Source: Phycisphaerae bacterium (GTDB lineage: Bacteria > Planctomycetota > Phycisphaerae > Sedimentisphaerales > Anaerobacaceae). Taken from it: a DNA stretch of 64,000 nucleotides. The stretch is taken from contig JAQTLP010000003.1 in assembly GCA_028714855.1 (NCBI GenBank), positions 1 through 64,000 on the forward strand, written 5' to 3'. Under the pieces are notes generated by a model. That model made no database searches and was not told where the DNA came from. It saw only the letters and a list, made by a program, of their open reading frames with translations. Positions 61,233 to 64,000 of the stretch are shown piece after piece; position 1 is the stretch's first letter; every line of letters begins with the position of its first letter. The position numbers and the translations under genes are program-made.

Positions 61233-61428
61233 TTTAGTTGCGATTATAAACTGCTTAAATTATCTCAATAAAACTCAACTGCTCGCTAGAAAGCTCTTGA
61301 AATAATTGGGATTATCGAGTATAATACCATCCCCAAACAGGGGACATATGATAAACAGCATAAAAGTAAGTGAATAACAAAGTCGTTCTTGCCTTGATAA
61401 TATAAGTTTAGGGCATAAGAATTCAACT

Positions 61429-62571
61429 ATGACAGACCTTTTTGCAACAGAGACCTTATATCTGAATTATCAGCCAAAGCAGGCTCCTAATTTTAATCCT
61501 GACTCAATAGTGCTGACAAAAGGCAGTCGTCAAACCCCACAACAGCGCGATTTCATACAGGCAATTTGCAGTCTATATCCTAAAGCACCGGTTATTGAGA
61601 GATTTGACATACCCCACAATCGCTTTGATATTGGCGGCTGCGATCCCATGGAGGCGCATTACAAAGGTAAAAAGACGTTAGTATTCGGAGTACATAAAAG
61701 CGCTCTTAGATTCAGCGATGAAGATAGCAATGCCTGTCCAAATTACTGGCATTTTTCGCCATACGGTTTCTGCCCTTACGATTGCCAGTATTGCTATCTC
61801 GCAGGCACACCAGGCGTAAAATTCTCACCAACAGTAAAAATATTCGTAAATATCGGCGAAATTCTTAGCCAGATTGCCGGTGTTGCTTCCAAGTTATCTG
61901 AACCCACAGCTTTCTATTTAGGCAAACTTCAAGACGGGCTGGCACTTGACCCGCTCACTGGATATTCGCGTATGATGGTTTCTTTTTTCGCTCAGCAGAA
62001 GTATGCGAAACTTATTCTGCTAACTAAAAGCGCCAATGTAGACAACCTTCTTGACATTGACCATCAAGGCCAGACCATCCTTTCGTGGAGTTTAAATCCC
62101 TCTGAAATTTCCGCCGTTTTTGAGTCGAATGTACCATCTCCCAGCGAAAGAATTGCTGCAATGCGAAGATGTGCAGATGCAGGCTATCCTTTGCGGGCCG
62201 TGATAATGCCAATAATTCCTATTGATGGGTGGCAAAATATATACACCCGCTTTTTAGAGAATCTTTTGGAGTCGGTACCACTTACTCGTATAACCCTGGG
62301 GCAAATCTGCAGCTATTCAGGGGCTTTACAACTTACCGAACGTAAATTGGGCAGGAATAATCCTATCTCAAGTATGCTCGAAAAAAACAAATCCAAAGAT
62401 GGCCGAATTCGCTTCCCAATAGAATTAAGGATTGAAGTCTACAGATACCTGGTTGATACGACAAGAAAACTGCAGCCCCATTTGCAGATCGGTTTATGCA
62501 TGGAAGAGGCTGACACCTTCAAGGCGTTGGATATGCAGAACTCTATCGGCTGCTGCAACTGCGTGCTCTGA
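61429..62571 (+). CDS. SPL-family radical SAM protein
   Basis: 380 residues. The SAM-binding Fe-S motif is C115-P-Y-D-C119-Q-Y-C122 (CxxxCxxC), preceded by HFSPYGF, a layout known from the spore photoproduct lyase (SplB) group. RAVIMPIIPIDGW and ITLGQICSY are further family blocks; the C-terminus CCNCVL is unusual in having three cysteines. True SplB repairs spore photoproduct in endospores; this organism is not a known spore former, so another radical reaction on DNA or small molecule is possible. Its ATG is 197 bases past repeat copy B, and it precedes a DNA methylase. Confidence 0.85.
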   Translation: MTDLFATETLYLNYQPKQAPNFNPDSIVLTKGSRQTPQQRDFIQAICSLYPKAPVIERFDIPHNRFDIGGCDPMEAHYKGKKTLVFGVHKSALRFSDEDSNACPNYWHFSPYGFCPYDCQYCYLAGTPGVKFSPTVKIFVNIGEILSQIAGVASKLSEPTAFYLGKLQDGLALDPLTGYSRMMVSFFAQQKYAKLILLTKSANVDNLLDIDHQGQTILSWSLNPSEISAVFESNVPSPSERIAAMRRCADAGYPLRAVIMPIIPIDGWQNIYTRFLENLLESVPLTRITLGQICSYSGALQLTERKLGRNNPISSMLEKNKSKDGRIRFPIELRIEVYRYLVDTTRKLQPHLQIGLCMEEADTFKALDMQNSIGCCNCVL

Positions 62572-62660
62572 TGTTAAATAATCATCTGCATGAACACATC
62601 TAAAATTAGCTAAGAACATAAGGTCAATTCATTTTTGAACCAGTTTAGAAAGGGAGAAAA

Positions 62661-64000
62661 GTGGCTAACTCTTTATTGGAATTTGGGGCTATTCTACCGC
62701 CTTTACTTGAACAACAGATTTCTCCACCATATAGAATTGTTGCACGCCACCTTGCTTATCTTCAAAAGTGGCGAGAGTATTTGTTGTGGATGTGGACAGG
62801 TGATACAGATAAGAACACAGATAAGACAAATGTCCAACGGTCGGTCGACGAGTTTCTCTCCACAATTCTGCTCATAGACTTTGTTGGGCGTTCATATCCT
62901 ACGATGATTCCAACTGTTGAGGAAGTTCTAAAAATTATTAAAAAACCCACCGCTTTTGACCTCTGTGAGGCGGTTTACAATCAAGTATCTTGCAAACTAC
63001 TCAAAGCAGTATTTAGTCCCAATAGTTTGATAGGCCCGATGATAGAGCCTCTAAAAAATGTGGAATTATCATCTTTAAATAATATCTCAGAAGTTGTCGA
63101 AACCTTATATGGTTCTCGAATACTAATTACTCTCTTGGGCGACTTTCACCAATTATGCTTAGAGTATCCAGTTGCAGACAAAACGGTTTGCAAAAAAAGC
63201 TCAGGCCGCCATGGAAAAGGCATATATTACACTCCGGCTGCCCTAGTAGATTACATTGCGTTCCATACCCTTAGGAAGGTTTTTCATAAATTAGCACCAG
63301 AGCAGATTAAATACTTGCGAATTTTTGACCCTTCCTGTGGTTATGGAGTTTTTTTAATAGCATCTTTTCGCTTTATACTTGAGTGGTTCAGAACATCATC
63401 TCGCCTTTCATTACAGGAAAGCCTTGAACTTCTTGAATCTATGATTCATGGCATAGACATAGATGAATGCGCAGTTCACTGGACACATAAATTACTTCTA
63501 CTAACGGTTTTGGATTTTTATATCCACAAAGGTATAAGCAATGATGATATTCGAAACCTAAAGATACCAAACCTCGTGGAGAATATCATTTGCAGGGACT
63601 TCCTTGAGGAGCAGCCTTTAAAAAACGAGGCCTACCACATAATCATCGGCGGCCCTCCCTTTGTCCGGGTGCAGGAACTTTATAAATCGGACGCTGTAAA
63701 GGTAAACAGTTATAAGCGGAGTTATGAAACGGCAAAAGAGGGACAGTTTGACCTGTATATGCTTTTTATCGAAAGAGCGATTAAACTATTAGTCGATCAG
63801 GGCCATTTAAGCATGAGTGTGTCTAACACATTTTTGCGATCTGGAAGTGGTCGCGCACTTCGCAAATTAATCACAGACAAATGTGCTATCCGTGAAATTA
63901 TCGAATTCGAGGACAATAAATTATATCCCAATGCCTCAGCTCAGATTGCTGCAATTATGCTCCAGAAAACCACCAAGAGGAATACTACAAGGCACGTTTT
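62661..64000 (+). CDS. Eco57I/N-6-type DNA adenine methylase, truncated at window edge
   Basis: Open from GTG 62661 (AGGGAG upstream) through the right edge, 446 codons and still going. The N-terminal part is helical and has no recognised domain. GRHGKGIYYTPAALVDYI (about 182-199) is the Eco57I-like lead-in. Motif I is DPSCGYG (223-229) where DPACGSG is usual. Motif IV is GPPF (331-334, IIIGGPPFVRVQEL) where N-P-P-[YF] is the catalytic motif. Then DLYMLFIERAIKLL and VSNTFLRSGSGRALRKL as in the family. The Asn-to-Gly change should affect methyl transfer. C-terminal parts (target recognition, nuclease) are outside. Confidence 0.85.
   Translation, partial: MANSLLEFGAILPPLLEQQISPPYRIVARHLAYLQKWREYLLWMWTGDTDKNTDKTNVQRSVDEFLSTILLIDFVGRSYPTMIPTVEEVLKIIKKPTAFDLCEAVYNQVSCKLLKAVFSPNSLIGPMIEPLKNVELSSLNNISEVVETLYGSRILITLLGDFHQLCLEYPVADKTVCKKSSGRHGKGIYYTPAALVDYIAFHTLRKVFHKLAPEQIKYLRIFDPSCGYGVFLIASFRFILEWFRTSSRLSLQESLELLESMIHGIDIDECAVHWTHKLLLLTVLDFYIHKGISNDDIRNLKIPNLVENIICRDFLEEQPLKNEAYHIIIGGPPFVRVQELYKSDAVKVNSYKRSYETAKEGQFDLYMLFIERAIKLLVDQGHLSMSVSNTFLRSGSGRALRKLITDKCAIREIIEFEDNKLYPNASAQIAAIMLQKTTKRNTTRHV

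Follow-up and report, generated by a model that had tools for sequence, protein, structure and literature searches.

A spore photoproduct lyase-like radical SAM protein and its methylase-fold neighbors with an altered motif IV as a candidate module for DNA base modification

At the end of the window analyzed here, a stretch of 64,000 nucleotides (C3:1-64000) from a genome of 2.3 Mb in 19 contigs, a gene for a spore photoproduct lyase (SPL)-like radical SAM (rSAM) protein is followed by a gene for a protein with a methylase fold, and we asked whether the two could act together and, if so, on what. The rSAM gene (61429..62571; all window coordinates given here are on the plus strand) encodes 380 aa that match Pfam SPL with E=1.8e-37. 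The second gene begins with a GTG codon at 62661, preceded by an AAGGGAG site, fills the rest of the window (62661..64000) and runs past it to 64973, encoding a 770-aa protein with a gamma-class MTase fold of the Eco57I type. The two genes are on the same strand, and no terminator-like site was found in the 89 bases between them; both genes are real, as the initial annotation had proposed. A putative promoter-like site, TTGAAA-17-TATAAT (61297..61325; 11/12 matches in a consensus scan), lies 5' of the pair. On the 5' side lie two ABC transporter genes and a small unassigned ORF, and the 3' neighbor of the methylase gene is murG, on the opposite strand and named by eye from the sequence. With such surroundings, the rSAM-methylase pair stands alone.

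The methylase-like protein contains Eco57I (E=9e-27) and N6_Mtase domains followed by a C-terminal TaqI_C DNA specificity domain at residues 601-716 (E=8.7e-8), and its predicted fold is nearest to those of CamA and BseCI. The sequence past 64000 thus provided a specificity domain, but no nuclease: none matched within the 770 aa, whose N-terminus is simply helical, and none was recognized among the ORFs, judged by eye, in the 9 kb past the methylase stop. With no nuclease either inside the methylase or next to it, we found no evidence for the defense module that the initial annotation had suggested. The lack of a fused or adjacent nuclease also sets the protein apart from type IIG restriction-modification enzymes. 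The BREX PglX and PADLOC restriction-modification models showed distant homology to the methylase domain, but the PglX score was 87 against 400 bits, no BREX or nuclease genes were present in the flanks examined, and the rSAM protein of the window had no PADLOC match.

Compared with gamma adenine methylases (Eco57I, CamA, BseCI and type IIG), the window protein shares the fold, motif I, motif X, the PPF of motif IV and the TaqI_C domain. The motif X region, GIYYTP (63219..63236), is kept, with G187, Y190, T191 and P192 invariant in the alignment. Two motifs had been described as altered. Motif I, the SAM-binding DPSCGYG (63327..63347), proved to be an ordinary variant, because the orthologues read DPSCGCG; CamA, an adenine methylase of solved structure, has DISCGCG. 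The change in motif IV, however, held: GPPF (63651..63662; codons GGC CCT CCC TTT), within the context GGPPF, replaces NPP[FYW] and is fixed in the orthologues. M.TaqI and T4Dam use the D/N of motif IV to hydrogen-bond the target N6 and as a proton acceptor (PMC3814359), and the aromatic residue of the motif steadies the flipped base (PMC11842806). The window protein keeps this stacking aromatic and has lost the amine ligand alone.

We examined motif IV across the gamma-class relatives. Two other genera have methylase orthologues, 68% and 57% identical, that preserve the SPL-methylase gene order and carry an identical GGPPFVRVQELYKS, so that a sequencing error as the origin of GPPF was ruled out and the change is genuine. 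Among nine intact gamma methylases linked to an rSAM gene, seven have GPPF, one APPF and one SPPF; the lone SPPF copy would satisfy a loose [N/D/S]PP[F/Y/W] pattern, whereas the GPPF of the window does not. Thus, intact linked copies differ from ordinary gamma adenine methylases by a Gly, Ala or Ser in place of the catalytic Asn; the window protein also lacks a nuclease domain. Two further broken linked copies still show GGPP and GGP, and the surroundings of the motif were near-identical in the nine intact copies across 29-68% identity. The closest gamma relatives without an adjacent SPL-like gene have Asn in every case (14/14, plus three more), and background Eco57I-family proteins from 119 Planctomycetota genomes have NPP[FYW] at all 28 loci with a readable motif. 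In a tree, a single clade comprised the linked methylases (G/A/S), and its separation from the unlinked methylases (N) had 100/100 support. Comparison of the window methylase with that of the relative G023 gave a dN of 0.20 and an unsaturated dS of 1.21 (dN/dS ~0.16); for the rSAM genes of the same two genomes, dN was 0.12 and dS 2.7, which is near saturation and shows only that dN is far lower. At the level of sequence, these values show purifying selection on the gene pair.

The same neighborhood was found with a second type of methylase. In other phyla, ParB-fused beta-class methylases (ParB-N6_N4_Mtase), in which the motif order differs and which are not ordinary relatives of the gamma class, adjoin the same rSAM family or a companion rSAM. 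Among the carriers of this version is Desulfatibacillum alkenivorans DSM 16219, a named strain from a culture collection. The beta partner resembles the phage ParB-fused DNA methylases (phrog_498), which are likewise ParB-N6_N4_Mtase fusions. Ordinary ParB-fused methylases, however, have no SPL-like neighbor in the stretch examined and carry DPPY (32/32 unlinked copies), whereas in the nine rSAM-linked ones with a readable motif Gly replaces the catalytic Asp, giving GPPY (eight) or GPPC (one), and the linked copies form one clade in the tree. Both classes keep the SAM-binding motifs and the stacking aromatic, except for the one beta copy with Cys instead. As read from the alignments, then, the same position of motif IV has been lost in two unrelated methylase classes that share an rSAM neighbor. 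Since each Gly clade may stem from one event, the independent losses number two, not eighteen. We favor the proposal of the initial annotation, a methylase that binds without methylating adenine in the normal way, given that motif IV is lost in all intact linked copies and in a second class.

We also analyzed the rSAM protein. SPL is a thymine-dimer repair enzyme that reverses 5-thyminyl-5,6-dihydrothymine. The window protein shares with SPL (SplB, TIGR04070 / PF20903) the fold, the CX3CX2C motif and the flanking tyrosines. Its structure, predicted with a mean pLDDT of 89.6, matches that of spore photoproduct lyase 4fhg with TM scores of 0.76/0.85. The rSAM motif, CPYDCQYC (61771..61794), is followed by Tyr, and family alignments and comparison with SplB showed that the YCY tyrosines of SPL are retained; in one of 37 aligned family members, the third Cys of CX3CX2C is Tyr. 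The protein nevertheless scored below the NCBIfam cut-offs of both TIGR04070 (144 against 400 bits) and TIGR03886 (65 against 437.55), and no spore context was seen at its locus. Moreover, the position of the essential SPL cysteine (C140/C141) is occupied by Lys166 (codon 61924..61926), which is invariant in 37/37 aligned family members, whereas Cys is present at this position in SplB and in a cyanobacterial protein of the SPL family. A C-terminal CCNCVL (62551..62568) provides a further difference, the CNC being missing from SplB and the cyanobacterial protein. Besides the rSAM motif, cysteines 103, 294, 357, 376 and 378 are invariant in the family alignment, and Cys294, Cys357, Cys376 and Cys378 could form a possible four-Cys site for an auxiliary Fe-S cluster. 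The SPL Cys serves as hydrogen donor for the thymine methyl radical; with C141A, this radical is trapped as TpTSO2-, and activity in vivo is abolished (PMC3742179). Because an invariant Lys replaces the hydrogen-donating Cys, the rSAM protein should not complete an SPL-type repair. The trapping seen with C141A leads us to expect that an SPL barrel lacking the Cys would leave a radical able to couple to something else.

To see how widely the pair occurs, GTDB genomes were scanned, and 79 loci of the rSAM family were found in Planctomycetota, Chloroflexota, Deltaproteobacteria, Hydrogenedentota, Armatimonadetes and others; the near relatives of the window genome are Phycisphaerae and other Planctomycetota. 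By tblastn, a gamma methylase, broken or fragmentary in some cases, was present at 12 of these 79 loci, and a ParB-fused beta methylase, full or remnant, at about 15; the beta query matched 18 loci, some of them weakly or at a distance from the rSAM gene. The other neighbors were a second rSAM, DUF523, a PP-loop PAPS-reductase-like gene, DUF488 and a 134-aa protein, and 32 of the 79 loci, some on short contigs, had none of the surveyed partner genes in the flank examined. The SPL tree labelled by partner was patchy. When the search was started from the methylases, 8/8 gamma carriers in 397 class-level genomes adjoined the rSAM gene; these mostly coincide with loci already found through the rSAM, so that the value of the result lies in the failure to find an unlinked copy and not in additional cases. 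Likewise, 3/3 beta copies in 392 phylum-level genomes adjoined the rSAM gene or its companion. The pairing is therefore conserved from the side of the methylase, but not from the side of the rSAM gene, since at about half of the rSAM loci no methylase lies within 6 kb. The refuting condition named in the initial annotation, an rSAM gene usually located elsewhere in relatives, is thus borne out by half. No gamma-type methylase match was found genome-wide in G031 and G014 (97% and 88% complete), and therefore the rSAM can exist alone. In other genomes, the linked methylase is frameshifted or truncated (L085, L090 and L125) or a fragment (L100), and therefore loss of the methylase is possible. 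At L070, an apparent methylase fusion of 1946 aa was an artefact of an N-masked stretch.

Several related loci differed in content. One related rSAM locus adjoins a terminase gene; carriage of the rSAM family by phages was considered, and no relative was found in IMG/VR, while GenBank phages and plasmids gave only distant matches. An operon-like run at L082:605-7191 contains a small MTase-like gene, two ParB-type genes, a PP-loop PAPS-reductase-like gene, DUF523, a second rSAM, an SPL-like rSAM and a phage terminase large subunit, a composition suggestive of a phage-type cluster for modification that involves sulfur chemistry. L042-L047 carry a separate SPL-like paralogue (e.g. L044:7660-8751) that is 33-36% identical and, in three aligned copies, has Glu at the catalytic Cys position and a C-terminal CNC. 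In five Phycisphaerae relatives this paralogue ends a conserved gene cluster, and a phage head protein match (phrog_240) was obtained in two of the clusters tested; the cluster resembles a gene transfer agent or a phage that has been domesticated. At L047 the paralogue is present, and the flank examined has an adjacent second rSAM, not that cluster.

SPL-like rSAM domains were also found joined or close to other proteins. In two related Planctomycetes (L049:670-2862 and L050:4395-6263), TcmP, a family different from the Eco57I methylases, is fused to an SPL-like rSAM domain in which the SPL Cys is lost, with Glu at its position, and which ends in CNC whenever its C-terminus is available; the fusion at L050 adjoins a gene judged by eye to be DUF5131-like. 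TcmP (TIGR04474)/three-Cys-motif rSAM is thus a similar case of an SPL-like rSAM joined to another protein. Neither window protein matched TIGR04474 at E 0.1, and TcmP cannot explain the rSAM-methylase pair because it lacks an assigned function itself. The 134-aa protein (L083:7175-7579), which had no match in Pfam, NCBIfam or PHROG, lies next to or near an SPL-like rSAM, often together with a ParB-fused methylase, and has relatives at L073, L075, L087, L093, L095, L096, L097, L110, L119 and L120. In a Sedimentisphaerales MAG (L060:5541-8069), DUF488, an SPL-like rSAM and a second rSAM form a tight run in which the latter two overlap; DUF488 is near an rSAM at L092 as well.

What could the pair do? 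The evidence is all comparative and comes mostly from MAGs, and a conserved neighborhood does not prove co-action; we give about even weight to the idea that the rSAM and the methylase-fold protein work as a single functional module in the modification (or editing) of a DNA base. We infer from the sequences that the two would act jointly, on DNA and on a flipped base, and the proposed identity of the base has the same footing. The methylase-like protein would recognize a DNA sequence through its TaqI_C-type domain, bind SAM and flip out a base. Because the amino-binding Asn is replaced by Gly, the usual methylation of an exocyclic amine would be impossible, and the SPL-like rSAM would act on the flipped base either after or before the methylase-like protein. 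The flipped base would bear a carbonyl at position 4 or 6. An oxo-base such as thymine would be the most natural target, since thymine is the substrate of SPL and the Gly of motif IV removes the acceptor that would clash with a position-4 carbonyl. A more specific version, which we offer tentatively, is that two unrelated methylase folds independently became sequence-specific flippers for an rSAM that functionalizes an oxo-base, yielding a new radical-made DNA base; the oxo-base would probably be thymine, perhaps with sulfur added at the DUF523/PP-loop loci.

Other explanations were weighed against this module. The methylase-fold protein could be an active methyltransferase with another acceptor, methylating, for example, a sulfur, oxygen or carbon atom of the rSAM product instead of acting as a base flipper alone. 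Both classes have kept the SAM-binding motifs and the stacking aromatic, and sulfur is a plausible acceptor because genes of the DUF523 family (TudS-type desulfidases) occur at nine rSAM loci and the PP-loop gene is near it at two; DUF523/TudS enzymes are thio-base desulfidases (PMC10611767). The window pair, however, has none of these sulfur genes beside it, most methylase-bearing loci lack them, and we consider the explanation rather unlikely. It is improbable that the pair serves DNA repair, with the rSAM reversing a UV or oxidative lesion that the methylase-like protein finds and flips, and with no modification made. The SPL fold and homology agree with this, SPL being a repair enzyme for a thymine dimer, and base flipping is what a methylase fold does. 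But the catalytic Cys of SPL is an invariant Lys here, C141A inactivates SPL in vivo (PMC3742179), and a sequence-specificity domain such as TaqI_C is unexpected in a lesion finder. An ordinary N6-adenine methylase that tolerates Gly in motif IV and adjoins the rSAM by chance would agree with the overall fold and domain order, which are those of normal adenine methylases; since no unlinked relative or background enzyme departs from Asn, the corresponding position is altered in a second class with the same neighbor, and methylase-first searches always reach the rSAM or its companion, we regard this as quite improbable. Finally, a decaying methylase with GPPF as an early lesion of a dying gene, as the three frameshifted or truncated linked copies and the fragment elsewhere might suggest, is contradicted by the conservation of nine intact copies with near-identical motif context and a dN/dS of ~0.16, and is very improbable.

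No earlier description of an SPL-like rSAM paired with a methylase was found in the open-access literature, including papers on SPL with methylases, ParB, DUF488, TcmP or hypermodification. To our knowledge, no rSAM enzyme is known to install a DNA base modification together with a methylase-fold partner. Taken together, the recurrence of the pairing and the loss in a second methylase type across several phyla point to an undescribed DNA modification. The parallel loss of the amine ligand in two classes predicts methylase folds that do something other than amino methylation.
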